The notes under the pieces were generated by a model. The model worked only from the letters and a program-made list of their open reading frames with translations, had not been told where the DNA came from and did not search any database. DNA of 50,690 nt from the NCBI GenBank assembly GCA_017628235.1, contig JAGBZM010000078.1, positions 1-50,690 of the forward strand, given 5' to 3'. This DNA comes from Lentisphaeria bacterium. Its GTDB lineage: Bacteria; Verrucomicrobiota; Lentisphaeria; Victivallales; Victivallaceae. Shown here one piece after another: positions 9,011-24,742 of the stretch. Numbering within the stretch: position 1 is the first letter of the stretch; each line of letters begins with the position of its first letter. The translations under genes and the position numbers were made by a program.

Positions 9011-9805
<795 letters not shown>

Positions 9806-9825
9806 TTCAGAAAGGTAACAGAGAG

Positions 9826-12666
9826 ATGAAACATACCCTTTTTGTGCTCTTTTTTCTGATGACATCACTGGCGGTATCTGCCGCCAATCCGGTGGCCATC
9901 AGATGTGACAAAGCACCGAAACTGGATGGCAGACTGGATGATGCCGTCTGGAAACAGGCAAAGGTTTTTGATAAATTTTTCGTTATCAATACCGGGAAAA
10001 AACCAGATCACCGCACCGAAGTGCGGATCCTTTACGATGACAAAGCATTCTATTTCGGCTTCCGCAGCTTCTGGGCTCCGGGCAAGCCGGTGATCCCGCC
10101 CTCCTATCCCCGGGATGCCGGTACCGGACTGGGCAGACATGAATGCGTGGAGATCATGCTTGATATCGGTGCGACCGGCAGCGAATACTTCCACTTTTTC
10201 ATCACCGCCGGCAACACCATGCTCGACCGTTACTGCAATCAGGGCGGTTATGTCGCCAATATCCGCTGGAATTCAACTGCCAGAAGCAAAGTTTCCACCT
10301 CTCACCCGGACTATTGGGAATGCGAAGTAATGATCCCTTACAGCACGCTGGAGATCCGCAACGATAAAAACGGCAAATTCCCGATCAATATCAATATCGC
10401 CCGGGGGGCGCGTAGCGTGTTTGAGGATTCCAGTATCGGCAGCAACGGGCTCTTTCACAATGCCGGAGCATTCCGCAAACTCGAAGGTTTTGATATGGAT
10501 CTTTCGCCGTACGCGTGGAGCTTCACGCCGCCGGTGATCAAGACCTCTTCTGCCGGAAAAACCATCTGCGCCGATGTTTCAAGCAATATCGTCAATAACA
10601 CCGGAAAAAAACAGCAGACCAGAGTCTCCTGCATCCTGAAAAATAACAACGATGCCGGTATGGCTTCGGTAAAAAAGGATTTTGCTCCCGGCAAAACTGA
10701 AACGTTCACTGCTGCCGGCATCAAATTGGGCGAAGCCGGAAATTACACCTGCTATATCACGGTCCATGATCAGAAAAATACAGTTCTGCACCGCAGTTCC
10801 TTCCCGGTGAAAATCGGTTTTTCACCGCTGGAAATCACTTTGTGCGATCCCCATTACCGCGACGCGATCTTTGCTACGCAGAATTTGAAAGAAATTTCCG
10901 CTGATATCAGAATCAATCTCCCCGGACGGGCCGCCAAAGTCGCTCTGCTCGATGATAAAGGCAAAATTTACGGCGAAAAACTCCTCAAAGTCAGCGGCAA
11001 TGTGAAGTTCGATGCCGCCAAACTGCCCGACGGAAATTATAAACTCACCGCTTCGATCGCAGATGATCCGGCTGCCGGAACAGTGGAAAAAGCCTTCCGC
11101 AAATTGCCCTATCTCAAAAATGAGGTATGGCGCGGCAAAGACGGCAACTGGTATGTCGACGGCCAAAAATTCTTTATCACCACCGAATGGAACGCCCGCA
11201 ACCATCATATTGAAGGTATCAAAACTTCCAAAACCAGTTTTGACAACGGGCTGCCCGCCGGGGTCAGACGGCTGACCAGAGAGTTCTCCGAACATCCATT
11301 TACCACGATGATGAAATCCGGCAAAGCGGAACTTTCGGCAGAAGATCTGGCTCTGATCCGTTCAACTGCCAAAAAACTTTCCGTCGATCCGGATACTTTC
11401 GCCCACTTCCTGGTCGATGAACCGGATAACGGCCGCTTCCCGCAGAAAATGCTGCTCACTCTCGCCGCAACCATCCGTGAAGCCGACCCGTATCATCCGA
11501 TATTCGTCTCCAATAATACGGTTGACGGCATGATGGACTACATCGATGCCGCTGAAGTCAACGGCCTGCACCCGTATCCCCACATCGACCGGGATAAGCA
11601 GAAAGCCAACATGGGGCAGGTGGTTTCCTACCTTGACCGTGCCGTGGATTTCTACAGAAACATCGGTAAAGAACAAACCATCGCCTATATGCAGCAGGGA
11701 TTCAACTACACTGACTACGGTGCCATCTACACCCGGACACCCTCTTATGATGAGATCCGGACGGAGTTCCTCCTCGCCCATATCATCTGCGCCAGAGGTA
11801 TCTTTGCTTACACCGCACCGGATGGCAGATATTATCCGGAATTAAAGATCGGTATGGTCGAATTGATGAAGGAATTCAACCATTACGGCAATATCTTCAT
11901 GGAACCGGAAGCAAAAACTGCCGCCATGAGCGCCAAAGGCGGCCCGGTGCGCTGGATTGTCCGGAAATACAAGGGCGATTACTGGATCTTTGCCGTTTCC
12001 ACTGATGACAAAAAGCATCAGATAACTTTCGATATCCCGGAAATCGGCGGCAAAAAAGTTCAGGTCTTTGCCGAAGAACGCTTCATTACCGCAGTAAACG
12101 GCAAATTCACCGACACCTTTGATAATTTCCAGGTGCATGTCTACACGACAAGCAGTGAACTTCACCCGGAAATATCGGTTGCCAAAGCTGAAAAACTGAT
12201 CGCTGAAGCCAACGCCGCACGTAAAGTCCCCGGCAGTCTGCTCTGGCAGAAGTTTGAGGATGTCACTGTAAGCATCACCACCAATTCCAATGCCAAAGTG
12301 TTCCGCCGCCCCATCGATACCTTGTGGCATCTGGCCGACGGTATCAAATTCGATAAAAATTACGGCGGTCAGCGTTTCGCGTGGCTTTCCAACGCAAAAG
12401 AGTTGCCAGTCTGGGTGCAGATGGATTTCAAAAAGCCGCAGACTTTCAGTAAAGCGGTCATCTGGTGTCTGGACAAGAGTTTGAAAGATTACACCATCTC
12501 GGTCAACGTCAACGGCAAATGGGTGGAGATCGCCAAAGTCACCGGCGGTAAAGAGTACAAACGGGAATTCAACTTCCCAACCGTAACCGCCACCGGCTTG
12601 CGGTTGGATGTGACCGCCACCAACGGCGACCGTGCCGGAGTAAGCGAAATAGAGATATTCAAATAA
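9826..12666 (+). CDS. Secreted multidomain sugar-active protein: CBM9-like, glycosidase-like barrel, discoidin-like end
   Basis: The 946-residue protein starts at ATG 9826; an in-frame TTG at 9802 lacks support. Residues 1-20 form a signal peptide. Residues about 21-215 look like a CBM9/DOMON-type domain (KLDGRLDDAVWKQA, then ECVEIMLDIG). Residues about 230-430 are beta-rich. Residues about 430-720 look like a TIM-barrel glycosidase; FLVDEPDN near residue 533 offers a candidate catalytic acid and HPYPHIDRD lies nearby. The C-terminal about 120 residues resemble an F5/8 type C (discoidin) domain, including YTISVNVNGKWVEIA and the final SEIEIF. I cannot assign a GH family. The gene is 20 bases behind a pseudopilin gene, which suggests a link in secretion or surface display. 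Confidence 0.8.
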   Translation: MKHTLFVLFFLMTSLAVSAANPVAIRCDKAPKLDGRLDDAVWKQAKVFDKFFVINTGKKPDHRTEVRILYDDKAFYFGFRSFWAPGKPVIPPSYPRDAGTGLGRHECVEIMLDIGATGSEYFHFFITAGNTMLDRYCNQGGYVANIRWNSTARSKVSTSHPDYWECEVMIPYSTLEIRNDKNGKFPININIARGARSVFEDSSIGSNGLFHNAGAFRKLEGFDMDLSPYAWSFTPPVIKTSSAGKTICADVSSNIVNNTGKKQQTRVSCILKNNNDAGMASVKKDFAPGKTETFTAAGIKLGEAGNYTCYITVHDQKNTVLHRSSFPVKIGFSPLEITLCDPHYRDAIFATQNLKEISADIRINLPGRAAKVALLDDKGKIYGEKLLKVSGNVKFDAAKLPDGNYKLTASIADDPAAGTVEKAFRKLPYLKNEVWRGKDGNWYVDGQKFFITTEWNARNHHIEGIKTSKTSFDNGLPAGVRRLTREFSEHPFTTMMKSGKAELSAEDLALIRSTAKKLSVDPDTFAHFLVDEPDNGRFPQKMLLTLAATIREADPYHPIFVSNNTVDGMMDYIDAAEVNGLHPYPHIDRDKQKANMGQVVSYLDRAVDFYRNIGKEQTIAYMQQGFNYTDYGAIYTRTPSYDEIRTEFLLAHIICARGIFAYTAPDGRYYPELKIGMVELMKEFNHYGNIFMEPEAKTAAMSAKGGPVRWIVRKYKGDYWIFAVSTDDKKHQITFDIPEIGGKKVQVFAEERFITAVNGKFTDTFDNFQVHVYTTSSELHPEISVAKAEKLIAEANAARKVPGSLLWQKFEDVTVSITTNSNAKVFRRPIDTLWHLADGIKFDKNYGGQRFAWLSNAKELPVWVQMDFKKPQTFSKAVIWCLDKSLKDYTISVNVNGKWVEIAKVTGGKEYKREFNFPTVTATGLRLDVTATNGDRAGVSEIEIFK

Positions 12667-16500: not shown

Positions 16501-16523
16501 TCCGGATATTTTGCAGAATCAGC

Positions 16524-16552
16524 TTGACAAATACAGTTTTTTACGTTATATT
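16524..16552 (+). promoter_or_regulatory. Candidate promoter of the LacI-family gene, with a degenerate operator
   Basis: TTGACA (16524-16529), a 17-base spacer, then TATATT (16547-16552). The spacer end TTTACGTTA is close to the TTTACGTAAA operator found twice elsewhere upstream of likely target genes, so weak autoregulation is possible. Confidence 0.65.
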
Positions 16553-16591
16553 TTGAGATGTGTTCTGTCACTGTAAAATATCGGAAGTACC

Positions 16592-17629
16592 ATGATAACC
16601 CAAAAAGAGATCGCACGGATACTCGGAATCAGCCAAATGACCGTTTCCGCCATTATGCGCAACGGTGAACTGGCAAAACGGTATCGCCCGGAACTGCGGG
16701 AAAAAGTCCTGAAAACTGCCGCACAGTACGGTTACTGCCGCAACGAGATCGCCTGCGCAGTACGTTACCGCAAAAGAAATGTCATCGGGTTCGTTTCACA
16801 GGAGTTGGGCAACGGATATTCCGGGGTTATCCTGCAGGGTGTGATCGATGCAGCGGCTGAACATTCTTTTCTGGTGAAAATTTTTTCCATCAACAGCAGC
16901 AGCACTCCCGGTCATAATTCCCTCGCTGAAACAGCTGCCAATCTGGCCGGTCAATGCATCGGCCAGCGGCTTGCCGGTTTGATCTGCTTCGATGTGGTCT
17001 TCCCGGAAGTGGTGGAAATCATCAACCGCAAACTGTACGATAACGGCATCCCGCTGCTGATGGCCAACGACCAGTCATATTTGGCCGCCAACAGCATCGG
17101 AGTATATTCCGATAATGCCGCCAGCGGTAAATTGGCTTTTGAACACTTCCACGCTCTCGGACATCGGAAATTTGCCCTGCTGGGAGGATACCGATGGACA
17201 GATAAAAACCGGTTGCTCCTGAAATCATTCAAACAGGCCGCCGAAAGTGCCGGTATCCCGCCGGAAAATGTGCTGGATCTGATCCAGGATGAGGATTGGG
17301 ATTATCATATGTATAGAGAACCGCTGCTGGATATCAGGCCGACAGCTGTTTTTACCACCTGTGATCCGGTCGCCTTGAATACCATGACCTCGCTCACAGC
17401 CGACGGCTTCAAAATCCCCCGGGACTTCGCCATCATGGGAGTGGGAAATCTCGCCTTTTCCAGAGTGTGCCGCCCCGGATTGACCTCGCTGGATGAAAAT
17501 TTGTACTCCATCGGTTATCGCTCTGCGGAATTGATCCTCGCTCACGGATGCAATCCGGTCGAAGAACCTTACCGCGAATTGATCCGTCCTTCCCTGGTCA
17601 TCAGAGAATCGACCGCCGCTGCAGAATAA
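16592..17629 (+). CDS. LacI-family transcriptional regulator
   Basis: The 345-residue protein starts with a LacI-type helix-turn-helix (ITQKEIARILGISQMTVSA, residues 2-20) and hinge, then a periplasmic-binding-protein-like sensor (NVIGFVSQELGNGYSG, about residue 65 on; FEHFHALGHRKFALLGGY; MGVGNLAFSRVCRPGLTSL). These regulators bind palindromic operators as dimers and respond to sugars or sugar derivatives. Its own promoter is at 16524-16552. The strongest candidate operator is the 18-bp palindrome 70 bases after its stop, in front of the GH106-type gene, with further copies upstream of the second pseudopilin. The ligand is probably a product of these enzymes, such as rhamnose or an oligosaccharide; this is inferred. 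Confidence 0.95.
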   Translation: MITQKEIARILGISQMTVSAIMRNGELAKRYRPELREKVLKTAAQYGYCRNEIACAVRYRKRNVIGFVSQELGNGYSGVILQGVIDAAAEHSFLVKIFSINSSSTPGHNSLAETAANLAGQCIGQRLAGLICFDVVFPEVVEIINRKLYDNGIPLLMANDQSYLAANSIGVYSDNAASGKLAFEHFHALGHRKFALLGGYRWTDKNRLLLKSFKQAAESAGIPPENVLDLIQDEDWDYHMYREPLLDIRPTAVFTTCDPVALNTMTSLTADGFKIPRDFAIMGVGNLAFSRVCRPGLTSLDENLYSIGYRSAELILAHGCNPVEEPYRELIRPSLVIRESTAAAE

Positions 17630-17656: not shown

Positions 17657-17685
17657 TTGACAAAACATTTTCCAGAGACTATATT
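17657..17685 (+). promoter_or_regulatory. Promoter of the GH106-type gene
   Basis: TTGACA (17657-17662), a 17-base spacer, then TATATT (17680-17685). The operator palindrome begins 12 bases downstream of the -10 box. Confidence 0.75.
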
Positions 17686-17697
17686 AGACGCCGTGGC

Positions 17698-17715
17698 TAT
17701 ATTTACGTAAATATA
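17698..17715. promoter_or_regulatory. Operator O1, perfect 18-bp palindrome
   Basis: TATATTTACGTAAATATA is perfectly self-complementary. Its place over the early transcribed region is typical of a repressor site. The core TTTACGTAAA recurs at 20973 and 21019. The adjacent LacI-family protein is the obvious candidate to bind it. Confidence 0.8.
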
Positions 17716-17803
17716 AAATATGATTTCTGCTACGTTCGCAAAAAAATTCAGTTTTCAGCGAATGGTTTTATCAAAAGCCGCAATTACGGCAAAAGGGATT
17801 CTT

Positions 17804-20800
17804 ATGAAAAAAAACTGCTATGACCCGTCTGCACCGGAGATCGACATGCAATTCCGGCCGGTGCCGTTCTGGAGCTGGAATGATCGACTGGAAAAATCCG
17901 AATTGCTCCGGCAAATCCATGAGCTGTATCAGGCCGGCAACGGTGGTTTTTTCATGCACGCCCGGGGCGGCTTGAAAACAGAGTATATGGGGCAGCAATG
18001 GCTGGATGCGATCAGCCTCTGCACCCGCGAAGCTGTAAAACTCGGCATGAAACCCTGGCTTTACGATGAGAATGGCTGGCCGTCGGGCTTCGGTAACGGT
18101 CTGGTCAACGGACTCGGCACGGAATATCAGGCCAAATATGCCAAACTGCTGCCGGTAACCGGAATATCTGACCGGAAGCAGATTCTGGCATGGTACGATG
18201 AAAACGGCAGGCGGCTGCCGGATGACAATAATGCCGCATACGCCCTGCAGATCTTTGTCAATCCTTTTTATGTGGATAATCTCAATCCCGCCGTAGTCCG
18301 GGAGTTTATCAAGCAGATATATCAGCGGTACTGGGATGAGCTGCCGCCGGATGTCCGGGAAAATCTGACCGGTATTTTCACCGACGAACCGCAGCTCTCC
18401 TGCGACGGTATCCCCTGGTCAATGGTTCTGACTGAGAAATATCGTGAAGACTGCGGCCGGGAACTGCTGGATGATTTTCCCGAATTGTCTCTGGAAACCG
18501 GCAATTGGCGGCAGACCAGAATCCGGTTCTGGAAGAGCGTCACCACCCTTTTCCGGGACAGCTACATCAACCAGATCGGGCAGTGGTGCCGGGAACACAA
18601 CTGGCAGTTGACCGGACATCATCTGATGGAAGAATCTTTTGACTCGCAGCTGAATATAAATGGTTCTGTCATGCCCCAATATGAAGGTTTCACCAGTCCG
18701 GGCATCGACCATCTATACCGGGTATCCACCTTTCTGACTCCGGAAATACAGGTCGTTTCCGCTTCCGCCATGAATGGGCAGCGGCAGGTTCTGGCTGAAA
18801 CTTTCGGCTGCAGCGGTTGGAACTTCAACCTGCGGGGCATGAAGTGGCTCGCCCAGCAGCATCTGGTGCTGGGGATCAATCTGCTGTGTCAGCATCTGGC
18901 CGCCTATTCCCTGCACGGTCTGCGTAAACGGGATTATCCGGCATCCATTTTCTACCAGCATCCGATGTGGAAATATGTACGGCAGTTGAATGACAGTTTT
19001 TCCCGTGTCGGCCGGATGCTGGCAACAGGAGATATCGAGTGTGAAGTACTGGTAATTCACGGGGAAAGTTCGGCGTGGATGCGCAGTCACGGCCACTTTC
19101 AGGATCATTTCAGCGGTAATATTTTCCAAAACTTCTGTCAATTATCCCAGATGCTGAGTGCTGCCGGAATACCATTTCACTACGGCGATGAGATCATGCT
19201 GGCGGAAAAAGGTACGGTCAGCGGCGGCAAACTGCGTTCCGGTGCCATGAGTTACTCCTGTGCAGTTATTCCGGCAGTGGATAATCTGTTGAGTTCGACG
19301 GTGCAACTCCTGCAGAAATTTTCGGCACAAGGCGGCAGGATCATCCGCTTGGCCATGCCGGAGAACGGTGATTTTTATATCGACGGCCGGCTGCCGGAGG
19401 AAAGTGAACTGCAATTTCTCAATCAGATACCGGTCTGCCCATCTCCGGAAGAAGCCGTTGCATTTCTCCGGCAGTTTCCGGCTCTGGAGATCCGTAATAT
19501 CGGCGGTCAACCCGGACGGGTTCGCGGCACCTGGCGCAACTTCCCGGAGAAAAGTGAACGCTGGTATTATCTTGCTGACTTTGCTTTTCTGCCTGAAAAC
19601 CGGATACCGGATGAAGATTTCCTGACCGAGATCCACTCCAATGTCCCGGAAGTGGAATCAGCCTGCGCTCTGGAAATAACGCTGCCGTTCCCCGCCGACT
19701 TTGCCGAAATCATCGACCAGGAAAGCGGTGCAGTTTCCGGACATGCTGACCTGATTTGCCGTCCGGACGGCAAATGCACTTTTCTGAAAACGATTCCGGC
19801 AGCCGGTTCTCTTCTGTTGCGGACCGGATACCATTCCGGCAGCAACCGGCAGATCGACCTGACGGCCAATTGGCAGGTGCATACAGATGATAATGTCATG
19901 ACTCTGGAAAAAGTTGCATACCGGCTGGAAGACAGCAGCTGCCGGCCGGAGGAAACAGATACCCTGAGCCTTTTCAACCGGCTGCTTGCTCTGGGAAAAG
20001 ATACCCCTCTGCAACTTTGTTACACATTTGAAGTTTCTCCGGAATTCGATCCGGAAAAAGCGGATTTGAAAATAGCTGTTGAACCGGATGACAGTGCGGC
20101 ATATTTTCTCAACGGCACGGAGATCAAACCGGAATTTCTGCCGGGATATTTCCTCGACCGGTCCATTCGCATACTGCAGCTGCCGGTCACTGCGATCCGG
20201 GCGGGAACAAATTTCTTTGAAGTAAAAAGTATATTCAGCCAAAGTCCGGAGATCCGGGCAGCAGTAATTCGGGCTAAAGAATTCGGCAGTGAAGCCAATA
20301 AACTCTCTTTTGACAGTGAAGTGGAAGCGGTTTATCTGCTCGGCAAATTCGGGTGTTTCTGCCGGGGAGAATATCGTAAGGAAAAAGCCGGATCGTTCTT
20401 TCTTGCCCCCTCATTCATCATCGGCAATATGCCGGAAACGGTGGATTCCGGACGGTCAGTGCTGCAGGGATTCCCGTTTTTCACCGGAACGCTGGTTCTG
20501 GAAAAAGAGATCGAACTCTCCGGAACCGATGCTGCCGGATTCCGGAAACTGTGCTGGTCGCAATTCAAAGCCGATACGGTGCAGGTAACGGTAAACGGGA
20601 AATCGTCCGGATGGATTTTTGCCCCTCCTTATGAATTCGATCTGACCAACCTGCTGAAAGAGGGGAAAAATCATATCAGAGTAGCTCTGGAAACCTCCTG
20701 CCGGAACACTCTGGGGCCGTTTCACACACCGGAAACCGAACCGATATGTACTTCACCGGGATCGTTTCTGACTGAACAGGACTTTCTCGGCAAGTATCAT

Positions 20801-20863
20801 CCTGGAAATGTCGCTGAATACGGAGTGCTGGAACCATCTCCGGAAAAAATAGTTATCTGCTGA
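17804..20863 (+). CDS. GH106-type glycoside hydrolase (alpha-L-rhamnosidase-like)
   Basis: The 1019-residue protein starts at ATG 17804 (AAGGG six bases upstream); the longer open frame to 17720 would begin inside the leader. The segment FRPVPFWSWNDRLEKSELL followed by GNGGFFMHARGGL and PWLYDENGWPSGFGNG is characteristic of family GH106, whose known members release alpha-L-rhamnose from pectic and other glycans. TGIFTDEPQ and GHHLMEES carry candidate acidic residues. C-terminal beta-sandwich parts include a sugar-binding-like segment near residue 900. No signal peptide is apparent, so the enzyme may work in the cytoplasm on imported oligosaccharides. A rhamnulokinase gene 8 kb downstream supports rhamnose use. 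Likely repressed through the operator at 17698. Confidence 0.82.
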   Translation: MKKNCYDPSAPEIDMQFRPVPFWSWNDRLEKSELLRQIHELYQAGNGGFFMHARGGLKTEYMGQQWLDAISLCTREAVKLGMKPWLYDENGWPSGFGNGLVNGLGTEYQAKYAKLLPVTGISDRKQILAWYDENGRRLPDDNNAAYALQIFVNPFYVDNLNPAVVREFIKQIYQRYWDELPPDVRENLTGIFTDEPQLSCDGIPWSMVLTEKYREDCGRELLDDFPELSLETGNWRQTRIRFWKSVTTLFRDSYINQIGQWCREHNWQLTGHHLMEESFDSQLNINGSVMPQYEGFTSPGIDHLYRVSTFLTPEIQVVSASAMNGQRQVLAETFGCSGWNFNLRGMKWLAQQHLVLGINLLCQHLAAYSLHGLRKRDYPASIFYQHPMWKYVRQLNDSFSRVGRMLATGDIECEVLVIHGESSAWMRSHGHFQDHFSGNIFQNFCQLSQMLSAAGIPFHYGDEIMLAEKGTVSGGKLRSGAMSYSCAVIPAVDNLLSSTVQLLQKFSAQGGRIIRLAMPENGDFYIDGRLPEESELQFLNQIPVCPSPEEAVAFLRQFPALEIRNIGGQPGRVRGTWRNFPEKSERWYYLADFAFLPENRIPDEDFLTEIHSNVPEVESACALEITLPFPADFAEIIDQESGAVSGHADLICRPDGKCTFLKTIPAAGSLLLRTGYHSGSNRQIDLTANWQVHTDDNVMTLEKVAYRLEDSSCRPEETDTLSLFNRLLALGKDTPLQLCYTFEVSPEFDPEKADLKIAVEPDDSAAYFLNGTEIKPEFLPGYFLDRSIRILQLPVTAIRAGTNFFEVKSIFSQSPEIRAAVIRAKEFGSEANKLSFDSEVEAVYLLGKFGCFCRGEYRKEKAGSFFLAPSFIIGNMPETVDSGRSVLQGFPFFTGTLVLEKEIELSGTDAAGFRKLCWSQFKADTVQVTVNGKSSGWIFAPPYEFDLTNLLKEGKNHIRVALETSCRNTLGPFHTPETEPICTSPGSFLTEQDFLGKYHPGNVAEYGVLEPSPEKIVIC

Positions 20864-20943
20864 TCCGGATTCCGGGCAGGCGGGATTTTACTGATTGAAA
20901 CGGAAAACTGACAATATTTGAAATATTTTTGAATTTACTTTAG

Positions 20944-20971
20944 TTGACAAGGAGATTTTCGGGAGTATATT
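20944..20971 (+). promoter_or_regulatory. Promoter of the second pseudopilin / DUF4838 operon
   Basis: TTGACA (20944-20949), a 16-base spacer, then TATATT (20966-20971). The first operator overlaps the end of the -10 region. Confidence 0.7.
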
Positions 20972-20972
20972 A

Positions 20973-20982
20973 TTTACGTAAA
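20973..20982. promoter_or_regulatory. Operator O2 (TTTACGTAAA)
   Basis: A perfect 10-bp palindrome next to the -10 box. It has the same core as O1 and O3. Confidence 0.7.
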
Positions 20983-21017
20983 CAACCGTCCCGGCAGAAT
21001 AATCCGGCGATTTTTAT

Positions 21018-21029
21018 ATTTACGTAAAT
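21018..21029. promoter_or_regulatory. Operator O3 (ATTTACGTAAAT)
   Basis: A perfect 12-bp palindrome preceded by TAT as in O1. Its centre is 46 bases from that of O2, so the two sites could be bound together through a short loop or by separate dimers. Confidence 0.7.
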
Positions 21030-21160
21030 GCCAATTATCCGGAGGAGGTTCAAAAAACAAGACAGCGGCAAACATAAATTATTAATCAGCAATCGGAAGA
21101 AAAATTTGCAATCATTGGCAGTGTGTTCATCAACCAACCAAACACAAGGAGTTAAAAAAC

Positions 21161-21862
21161 ATGAAAAACACGATGTCGGTAAATGGGAATTACTCCCTTA
21201 TGTTCAAGGGAGTAAAGGTGTTCAGCTTTACGCTTATCGAATTGCTTGTCGTAATAGCGATCATCGCCATTCTGGCGGCGATACTGCTGCCTGCGCTCAA
21301 TTCTGCCAGAGAACGCGGCCGCAACACCACCTGTAAAAACAATCTCTCCCAGCTGGGACGTTTCATGATGCTGTACGCTGATGACAATGACGGCCATGCC
21401 CATTGGAACAGCGGCGGCAGCGGTGCCATATCCACCTCATATGCTCTGCCCGGCAGCAGCACTTATAAAACCTCTTTGCCCTTCAGTGCTTATGTCGGCT
21501 ATGCCGCCAATGACAGTTCCGCCAAGAAAGGAGATTCCCTTTACCGTTGTCCTTCAGCGGCCAAAGGAAATGGCGGAAGTACAGACTATTCCTACGTCAG
21601 TTATGGCATGAATTGGTATATCGCCTGCAGTGCCAATGGCAATAAAACCACCAGACACAACTCTCCCAGCGCGACCAGCCTCTTTGCTCCCGGTCCTCAA
21701 GCCGCCCCCTGGAATTACTCTGAAAGTACCGATTACTCGGTAATGGCCAAGAGACACAGCAAATCATATCTGCTCAACATCAACTATCTGGACGGGCATG
21801 TCGCGGAATTGCAGGAAGCTCCGCCGACAAGCGGTCAGAATGTGTTTTTCAAAAGTTATTGA
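21161..21862 (+). CDS. Type II-like pseudopilin, second copy
   Basis: The 233-residue protein has a 22-residue leader and then [30 protein letters not shown] and, near the end, [17 protein letters not shown] (histidine and DG separated by 11 residues rather than nine). The residue before the cleavage site is serine instead of glycine. The leader [10 protein letters not shown] matches [10 protein letters not shown] of the first pseudopilin, and the DNA coding it forms the same two overlapping stems. AAGGAG lies upstream of the ATG. The DUF4838 gene starts 24 bases after its stop. Two LacI-type operators in front suggest it is induced together with the enzymes. Its partner secretion machinery is not in this window. 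Confidence 0.93.
21190..21231 (+). other. Two overlapping stem-loops inside the pseudopilin leader coding sequence
   Basis: Stem 1 pairs 21190-21199 with 21206-21215 (10 bp, 6-base loop). Stem 2 pairs GTAAAG 21212-21217 with CTTTAC 21226-21231. Bases 21212-21215 are shared. Compared with the first pseudopilin gene, stem 1 shows a compensatory change: A-T there, T-A here. Confidence 0.8.
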
Positions 21863-21886: not shown

Positions 21887-24742
21887 ATGAGACACATTAT
21901 TTCTGCAATATTTGCATATTCAGCTGTTATTCTGGCGGCGGCGGACCAAATACCGGCTCTGATGCCGGAAAGACCGCGTAAAATTGTTATCGGTCAGGAA
22001 AATACTCTGCCAATGATCCGCAACGGACAGACGGAATTTGTGATTGTCTTAACTCCTGACAGCGGCAAAGCAGCTCAATTCGCCGCCGGAGAACTTGCCG
22101 TACACCTCTCCGGGATCGCCGGTTCGCCAATTCCGGTAGTGGACACGCCCCCGGCAGACAAAGCGGCGATCATCGTCGGCTCTCCGGCAATTGCTGCTGC
22201 GTGGGGGATCAACCCTGCAGAGTTTGACCGGGACGGATTCATCATCCGGCGCAAAGGCAGACAAATCCTGCTTATCGGACGGGATACTCCGGGCAGATCA
22301 CCTTTGAAAACCACCCTTGAACCGGGTTACAAGCGGGAGTGTGCCACGCTGTTTGCCGTCTATGACTTTCTGGAACGTTTTGCCGGAGTCAGATTCTATT
22401 TCCCCGGAGAATTGGGGGTAGTCACCCCGCCAAAGAAAGATTGGTCTTTGCCGGAAATCGACATTTATGACCGTCCGGATTGGATACAGCGGCGGTTCAG
22501 TTCCGGCAACCATTCAGGACGCCCGGCGCGTTATCCGGCAAAAATCACCGCTGACAGGAAAAATGAATTCATCGCTTACCACCAGCTGCGCAACCGCCGG
22601 GAAACTCTGCTGCTGCCGTGCTGTCACGGAATGAGCTGCCTTAAATTGATCGAGCGTTTCGGTCAATCCCATCCGGAATACTTCTGCCTCTATCCGGACG
22701 GCAGCCGCAGCAACGATCCCCATGCCCCCGGCATTCAGGGACATATATGTTATTCCAATGCCGGAATCAAAAATGAGATAGTACAGGACGGCATCGCCTT
22801 TCTGCAGCAGAAACCGGCCAAAGAACGCAATTTGAAATCATGGCACAGCTGGTGGCACCCGGTTGGATTGCCGATTTTTGATATGATGCCGACAGACGGC
22901 TTGCGACTCTGCTGCTGCCCGGAGTGCAGCAAACACTTCGGTAAAGATGCCAAGGCTGCCAACGATTACATCTGGGATTTTTTCATCGACACCGCCAATA
23001 AAATCAAAGCCGGCGGCGGGAACGGTTACGTTTCCACGATGGCATACGCTCAATACGGCAATCCGCCGGAACGGGAGATCCCGGAACATTTGATGGTGAT
23101 GCTGGCCACACGCGGCCCCTGGGATCTGGATTCTCCGGAAATACTCAAGCATGAAACTGACCGGATCAAACTCTGGACCGGTAAACTCGGCCGCCGCACC
23201 TGGCTGTGGACATATCCGGGCAAATACTGGGGTATGCTTAAAGGAGTTCCGCACTCCACTCCGCGCACCATCGGCAAATACTTCAAACTGATCAGCCCGC
23301 ATATTTTCGGAGCCTACATTGAATCCGACTCCGATGTATTCATATTCAACCACCTCAACCACTACATTTTCGGCAAGGTGGCATGGAACAACGATTGCGA
23401 TATCGATGCTCTGCTGGATGAATATTACACCCTCATGTACGGCGCGGCAGCCGGACCGATGAAGGAGTTCTTTGAACGTATCGAAACCCTGTGGATGACC
23501 CGGATCGGCGGCAAGGCGGTAAATACTCCGCTGGGGCCGAAAATTGTCACCCCGTCGGATATCGAATTGTGGCAGGATATTTATTCTCCGGCGGAGATCA
23601 AAAAACTTGACCGGATTTTTGACCGGGCGGAAAAAGCGGTCAAAAACGGTTCATTGGAATATAAACGGATCGTATTCATGCGTGAAGAATTTTTCGGTCC
23701 GTTGAAATCTGCCGCTTCCTCCTGGCACACTCTCACCCTGGCCAGGGATGCCTTCTGCGGATACCCGGGTAAAAAACTCTATCTGCGTCCGACTTCCGGC
23801 AGAAAATCAGAAGTTAAAACTGTTGTCACTTACCGGGTCGATCCGGAATTTTTCTACTTTGATTTTGATTGCGAAGAACCTTACACCGATGATATGATCA
23901 TTTCGCAAAAAGGCGGGGTATGGAGCGATTCGGAAGTGGAATTGCTGCTTGATCCCAGTGGTAAACGCACCGGATACTTTCAGATCATGGTCAATGCCGG
24001 CGGCTTCAACCGGCAGCTGCAGTACCGTGACGGTGTCGAATTACCCTGGGAGAGCAACGCGGAAATATCTTCCCGTATCACTCCGGGCAAAGGTTACAAA
24101 GTAAGTATAAAACTGCCGAAAAAGAGTCTGGGAGAGATCAGTACTGACCGGATACCGGCAGATTTCTGCCGGGTACGGGGATTAAAAAACCGTAAAGTTG
24201 CGGAATTGACCAGTTTCTGGCGGCCGTATCCCGGGAAGTTCGGTGATGTGGCAAATTTCGGCACTCTGCATCTGCAGCCGGCGGTTCCGGCACTGATCGA
24301 TTTTGATTTTTCGGCCAATGTTATCAGCAACAAATATATTTACGGTTACGCGGCAGAAAAAACACTGAATCTTGACAGTGAATATTTTATTGCCGGCGGC
24401 AGATCACTGGTTCTGGTTCCGGAAAACCGCTGGTTCTCCGGCGGAGTGAAGTTGGAACCCGACAGTGAATATACCTTAAGTTATTTTGCCAAACTGGACA
24501 ATGTCCGTCCTCTGAAAACCTCTGCCGATTGCGGTCTGCTGGTACGCATTTATGATGGCGGTAAAAAATATTTCCGGCTGCCTCCGACGGCTCTGCACGG
24601 TTCTGCTGACTGGAAATACTGCAGCTATACTTTCAAAACCGGCAAGGAGGCCGGTCAGAAAAAAGGCTGGTTGAATTTTTCATTGAGTCAATGCACCGGA
24701 AAAGTGTGGATCGATTGCATAAAACTCCGTAAAATCCGGTAA
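21887..24742 (+). CDS. Secreted DUF4838 glycoside hydrolase-like protein with CBM9-like C-terminal region
   Basis: The 951-residue protein has a signal peptide (residues 1-18). Residues about 50-170 look like the alpha-glucuronidase-type N-terminal domain (GKAAQFAAGELAVHLSGIAG; AAIIVGSPAIA; ECATLFAVYDFLERFAGVRF). Residues about 200-500 match the DUF4838 barrel-like domain, with CHGMSCLKL, PTDGLRLCCCPECSKHFG and LWTYPGKYWG. Residues about 650-800 resemble a CBM9/DOMON domain (VEWSD-like WSDSEVELLLD). The last 150 residues look like a second carbohydrate-binding beta-sandwich. DUF4838 proteins accompany polysaccharide-degradation genes in Bacteroidetes and Lentisphaerae, but their reaction is not established. 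It follows the pseudopilin by 24 bases and shares its operators. Confidence 0.85.
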   Translation: MRHIISAIFAYSAVILAAADQIPALMPERPRKIVIGQENTLPMIRNGQTEFVIVLTPDSGKAAQFAAGELAVHLSGIAGSPIPVVDTPPADKAAIIVGSPAIAAAWGINPAEFDRDGFIIRRKGRQILLIGRDTPGRSPLKTTLEPGYKRECATLFAVYDFLERFAGVRFYFPGELGVVTPPKKDWSLPEIDIYDRPDWIQRRFSSGNHSGRPARYPAKITADRKNEFIAYHQLRNRRETLLLPCCHGMSCLKLIERFGQSHPEYFCLYPDGSRSNDPHAPGIQGHICYSNAGIKNEIVQDGIAFLQQKPAKERNLKSWHSWWHPVGLPIFDMMPTDGLRLCCCPECSKHFGKDAKAANDYIWDFFIDTANKIKAGGGNGYVSTMAYAQYGNPPEREIPEHLMVMLATRGPWDLDSPEILKHETDRIKLWTGKLGRRTWLWTYPGKYWGMLKGVPHSTPRTIGKYFKLISPHIFGAYIESDSDVFIFNHLNHYIFGKVAWNNDCDIDALLDEYYTLMYGAAAGPMKEFFERIETLWMTRIGGKAVNTPLGPKIVTPSDIELWQDIYSPAEIKKLDRIFDRAEKAVKNGSLEYKRIVFMREEFFGPLKSAASSWHTLTLARDAFCGYPGKKLYLRPTSGRKSEVKTVVTYRVDPEFFYFDFDCEEPYTDDMIISQKGGVWSDSEVELLLDPSGKRTGYFQIMVNAGGFNRQLQYRDGVELPWESNAEISSRITPGKGYKVSIKLPKKSLGEISTDRIPADFCRVRGLKNRKVAELTSFWRPYPGKFGDVANFGTLHLQPAVPALIDFDFSANVISNKYIYGYAAEKTLNLDSEYFIAGGRSLVLVPENRWFSGGVKLEPDSEYTLSYFAKLDNVRPLKTSADCGLLVRIYDGGKKYFRLPPTALHGSADWKYCSYTFKTGKEAGQKKGWLNFSLSQCTGKVWIDCIKLRKIR

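Follow-up and report, generated by a model that had tools for sequence, protein, structure and literature searches.

A probable local LacI-type regulon that ties a pseudopilin to enzyme genes in a Lentisphaeria bacterium

A LacI-family gene in a 50,690-nucleotide stretch of DNA from a Lentisphaeria bacterium (the whole stretch is referred to here as the window) very probably controls its neighbours as a local LacI regulon, which is a regulon of familiar type. We regard it as highly likely that the encoded protein (16592..17629, plus strand) is a local repressor of a GH106-like glycosidase gene and of a pseudopilin-DUF4838 gene pair, acting through TATATTTACGTAAATATA-type sites. Computation shows directly where the sites lie, that they are conserved together with this clade of regulators, and how the genes are ordered, and the strongest support for such a regulon is the conservation of the operator beside orthologous regulators in two other genera. 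The pairing gives a concrete operator and candidate regulator for a little-studied lineage.

Operator sites, promoters and target genes in the window

The regulator is a protein of 345 amino acids with the recognition helix SQMTVSA. Its C-terminal periplasmic-binding-protein-like effector domain (Peripla_BP_3, 6e-29) scores 101.7 bits against PF13377, well past the cut-off of 26.5, and similarity to solved members of the family runs through nearly the full length, with the CcpA structures 1zvv and 1rzr giving the best matches (E 3e-30, residues 3-341) and PurR and LacI matching too. The DNA-binding head reaches 24.8 bits against PF00356, where the cut-off is 27, and its helix-turn-helix aligns to CcpA without gaps.

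The earlier note had described a perfect 18-bp palindrome at 17698-17715, and the sequence at that position, TATATTTACGTAAATATA, is indeed exactly symmetrical. This operator, O1, begins 69 positions past the end of the LacI-family gene at 17629 (68 bases lie between), in agreement with the spacing of 69 bases reported before. Exact copies of the 10-bp core TTTACGTAAA are found at 20973-20982 and 21019-21028, 46 bp apart, within operators O2 (20969..20986, ATTATTTACGTAAACAAC) and O3 (21015..21032, TATATTTACGTAAATGCC); none of the three operators is assigned a strand. The second copy had been placed at 21018, which is where a 12-bp version of the core starts, and the earlier coordinates are correct overall to one base or better. 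The window operator has the form described for most sites of the LacI family, an even palindrome centred on CG (PMC4052901).

Allowing up to one mismatch, the core occurs eight times in the window where 0.93 occurrences would be expected, a count that was not reached in any of 100 shuffles. The earlier note had proposed scanning the genome for the palindrome. In the draft assembly, which at 1.46 Mb is 54% complete and sets the extent of our site list, three of the five exact 10-mers lie at the window promoters, within 3.3 kb. The remaining pair is intragenic, with one copy in an AraC-type gene on contig 5 and one in a membrane-protein gene on contig 77. Given five copies against four for the reversed control, the 10-mer is not over-represented globally. 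Its count alone is not rare enough genome-wide to serve as proof, and it is the distribution of the copies that is telling. No other intergenic exact 10-mer that would mark a further regulon member was detected in this 1.46-Mb, 54% complete draft, and 12-mers with up to two mismatches are at background across it (64 versus 60).

A pattern scan for TTGACA-N15-19-TATA(A/T)T detects only three promoters in the 50.7-kb window, all on the plus strand. They precede lacI (TTGACA-17-TATATT, 16524..16552), the GH106-like gene (TTGACA-17-TATATT, 17657..17685) and the pseudopilin-DUF4838 pair (TTGACA-16-TATATT, 20944..20971). The centre of O1 is located 21.5 bp downstream of the GH106-like -10 box, and those of O2 and O3 are located 6.5 and 52.5 bp downstream of the pseudopilin -10 box, which O2 abuts. 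Relative to the predicted start sites, O1 extends from about +6 to +23 and O2 lies over the start, a placement that suits repression by a protein bound there. The predicted lacI promoter is without an operator, as the operator matrix gives no 18-mer in 16510-16591 a score higher than 2. A TTTACGT that overlaps this promoter had suggested autoregulation of the window lacI, and this candidate was rejected because its full-site score is too low.

The GH106-like gene (17804..20863, plus strand) is only a distant relative of the GH106 family and the label is a weak one: its match to PF17132, the GH106 alpha-L-rhamnosidase family, has an E value of 3e-5 and 23.1 bits, short of the cut-off of 29. Its start is probably at 17804, within a longest open reading frame from 17720, on the basis that homologues align from about residue 29. 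Orthologues are 46-48% identical, and the protein is without an evident signal peptide. The DUF4838 gene (21887..24742, plus strand; PF16126, 1.8e-24) starts 24 bp past the end of the pseudopilin gene and encodes a protein with an apparent signal peptide, as judged by eye. A relative, G071 (contig 74, locus L155, 572-9208), has the same gene content with another type of regulator: its pseudopilin and DUF4838 genes are followed in a row by a gene for a GntR-type regulator and by the GH106-like gene.

We infer binding, repression rather than activation, the effector and the task of the pseudopilin as follows. The repressor, probably as a dimer, would recognize TATATTTACGTAAATATA, of which TTTACGTAAA is the conserved core. 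When a sugar-type effector is lacking, the repressor would occupy O1 and so block escape from the GH106-like promoter immediately upstream. It would also occupy two sites at the promoter of the pseudopilin-DUF4838 pair, namely O2, which adjoins the -10 box, and O3, 46 bp further on. Binding of the effector, presumably a sugar derived from the substrate, would make the repressor leave and free both operons together. The cell would then make the glycosidase, export the DUF4838 protein and supply a pseudopilin to a type II-secretion or type IV-pilus-like machine. Looping between O2 and O3 by a tetramer was considered and rejected: the 46-bp spacing does not correspond to an integral number of turns of the helix, a tetramerization tail is not apparent, and therefore two dimers are the likelier arrangement.

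Some LacI-family members activate transcription, and the transcription starts used here are predicted ones. A regulator that binds these sites but activates or merely fine-tunes, such that the operons would not be repressed when substrate is absent, is nevertheless improbable, given that all sites are at or downstream of predicted -10 boxes, where binding normally hinders RNA polymerase. The operators of the orthologous genes either include the -10 box of the lacI promoter or directly adjoin it, and these operators, like O2, are positioned as expected of repressor sites.

Orthologous regulators and recognition of the operator

Close orthologues of the regulator were found only when its DNA-binding head was used as a class-wide query, and the orthologue set consists of two proteins. 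Across 198 class genomes, only G073 (75%) and G068 (73% over 67 residues) carry a closely related head, the next best being 60% and 51% identical. Both are in other genera, and their full-length proteins are 48-50% identical to that of the window. The full LacI protein, searched against 60 relatives and genome contigs, retrieved distant homologues only, mostly 23-36% identical.

In both genomes the operator is located approximately 25 bp 5' of the lacI start, as TATATTTACGTAAACATA in G073 and as TATATTTACGTAAATATA, the very 18-mer of O1, in G068, so that each is identical to the window palindrome or differs by one mismatch. The orthologues have the operator at their own lacI promoter and the window lacI does not; therefore the wiring differs between genera. 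No further LacI-type locus from the head search has an exact copy of the core. With up to one mismatch, the 18-mer is found at five places class-wide (198 genomes), three of which are beside this LacI clade. The near-perfect sites also include G139 and G146, genomes with no detectable orthologue. In G146, a distant class member, the TACGTA-centred palindromes TATATTACGTAATATA and TTTATTTACGTAAATATA (contig 16, locus L255, approximately 1484-1518) are located 5' of a pseudopilin gene followed by a sulfatase-like gene.

A weight matrix was built from the two orthologue sites alone, with the window sites excluded. Over the 50.7 kb, it ranks O1, O3 and O2 first, second and third (31.0, 18.7 and 13.3), ahead of a next score of 10.6. 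Windows simulated with a third-order Markov model contain 0.2 sites each that score at least 13.3. The operator travels with orthologous lacI in two other genera and the matrix from those genera retrieves the window sites, which upholds the earlier proposal that the adjacent LacI protein is the likely binder.

The target genes themselves are not conserved, because the orthologous lacI sits with a different enzyme from that of the window, and in G073 and G068 the GH106-like genes are on other contigs, without an operator. Phylogenetic footprinting through the GH106-like orthologues likewise revealed no upstream operator, and the lone exact 10-mer there is inside a coding region.

It is conceivable that another transcription factor binds TTTACGTAAA and that the LacI gene is a bystander, given that the core is an easily recurring palindrome and that G146 has a near-identical site before its pseudopilin-sulfatase pair and no detectable orthologue. 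We consider this a little less probable even than activation. The site lies directly at lacI in both genomes that have the orthologue, and two orthologue sites are sufficient to recover those of the window. Moreover, scanning part of the window for regulators revealed just one more, encoded by an AraC-family gene (489-1283) with no operator nearby in a core scan of the window, and the next most similar LacI head in the same genome has Ala-Met rather than Gln-Met at positions 15-16. That the palindromes arose by chance or have a structural nature, such as AT-rich promoter sequence or terminator stems, is hardly credible, for although the 10-mer is no commoner genome-wide than its reversed control, the sites cluster at promoters, are conserved with the orthologous regulator and rank highest with an independent matrix.

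Features of the recognition helix are also compatible with binding by the adjacent LacI protein. The T at NT-3 of the operator is, to our knowledge, unusual, and it prompted a survey of palindromes. In 55 regions upstream of LacI-type genes of this group, 14 CG-centred palindromes were found against 0.9 expected, compared with 4, 3 and 2 for AT, TA and GC centres (2.1, 1.7 and 0.8 expected), which is at or near background. The window protein has Gln at recognition-helix position 15. A TACGTA centre characterizes 7/7 palindromes of Gln-15 regulators and 0/7 of the others (Fisher p 0.0003; a wider sample was also taken), and as the Gln-15 genes are partly related, falling into three clades with two of them being the G073 and G068 orthologues, the real strength of this association is below that implied by the p value. 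The association between Gln-15 and TACGTA may make it possible to match further regulators in this group with their operators. Arg at position 20 pairs with G at NT-6 according to the AA-20/NT-6 rule (PMC2978694). Residue 20 of the window protein is Ala, not Arg, and NT-6 is A, not G, in five of the six window half-sites, a combination that is consistent with the rule.

Three related LacI genes with the helix SQSTVSL, from different genomes (L227, L229 and L230), have upstream TCATACGTATGA palindromes in common, apparently another operator family of the same group. Lys-15 LacI genes (L022, L024 and L217) have AACCGGTT-centred palindromes near the start codon.

Pseudopilin genes beside LacI-type regulators

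The pseudopilin gene (21161..21862, plus strand) encodes a prepilin N-terminal motif (PF07963, 1.4e-5, 24.9 bits against a cut-off of 21.2; TIGR02532) and an H-X9-DG-like motif in its tail, and the protein was aligned with other cassette pseudopilins. The assembly ATPase PF00437 has four matches in the same genome (E 6e-138) and is present throughout the genus.

In G073, the orthologous lacI leads directly into a pseudopilin gene and then into a gene for a 1012-amino-acid enzyme-like protein with a carbohydrate-binding domain, and the three apparently form one operon, regulator, pseudopilin and secreted enzyme, behind the operator. The G068 gene leads into an 830-amino-acid protein without a pseudopilin, and by eye this protein seems to be related to the 1012-amino-acid protein of G073. 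Of the 59 distinct LacI-type genes examined, 23 are followed within 300 bp by a pseudopilin gene in the same orientation, and only one other pseudopilin motif was found elsewhere in the flanks; therefore the link is a habit of the lineage. The earlier note had tied a pseudopilin to an enzyme regulon, and the G073 arrangement together with this recurrent adjacency speaks in favour of that idea.

In the genome of the window, 20 of 30 inspected pseudopilin genes are followed within 120 bp by a gene on the same strand, often one with a signal-peptide-like start. The number of pseudopilin genes per genome in the genus ranges from 3 to 150 (34 genomes). The window itself contains a second pseudopilin gene (9011-9805), which overlaps by 4 bp the start of a gene for a 954-amino-acid F5/8-type-C protein; this further pseudopilin-enzyme-like cassette (9011-12666) is without the operator. 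In the literature that we searched, which was covered in part, no description of LacI-pseudopilin-enzyme cassettes was found.

It is possible, and we offer it tentatively, that in this lineage every enzyme locus is equipped with a pseudopilin under the control of its regulator, that induction by a given glycan thereby also alters the composition of a secretion or surface filament, and that the pseudopilin serves as a dedicated adaptor for its enzyme. Pseudopilin genes number as many as 150 per genome in this genus, and across the wider order a large share of them directly follow a LacI-type gene and precede that of an exported enzyme, a puzzle that becomes testable here. If pseudopilins are co-induced with single enzymes, the role of the expanded set can be asked locus by locus.

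Comparison with known systems

In common with local LacI regulons (Ravcheev et al. 2014, PMC4052901; Camas et al. 2010, PMC2978694), the regulator lies beside its presumed targets, the CG-centred even palindromes lie at promoters, and the presumed targets include sugar enzymes; the operators are located at the adjacent operons and the operator is kept beside orthologous regulators. Most local LacI regulators are autoregulated (PMC4052901), a trait suggested here in the orthologues only, the window lacI being without an operator at its own promoter. Unlike those regulons, the recognition helix ends in TVSA and not TVSR, and a pseudopilin is among the predicted targets.

As with the repressors CcpA, PurR and LacI, the match is full length and combines a DNA-binding head with a periplasmic-binding-protein-like core. 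However, in comparison with the solved structures the window protein has a loop three residues longer after the recognition helix, a hinge residue that aligns with the intercalating leucine but is Val/Ile, and no apparent C-terminal tetramerization helix. The operators of CcpA and PurR have an AACGTT-like core, whereas that of the window is TACGTA.

Similar to GspG/H-type pseudopilins and DUF1559 proteins, the pseudopilins of the genus have the prepilin cleavage and methylation motif and an H-X9-DG-like tail. Unlike them, they reach 150 copies per genome, and their genes are often found outside the secretion gene cluster, with a regulator gene on one side and the gene of an exported enzyme on the other.
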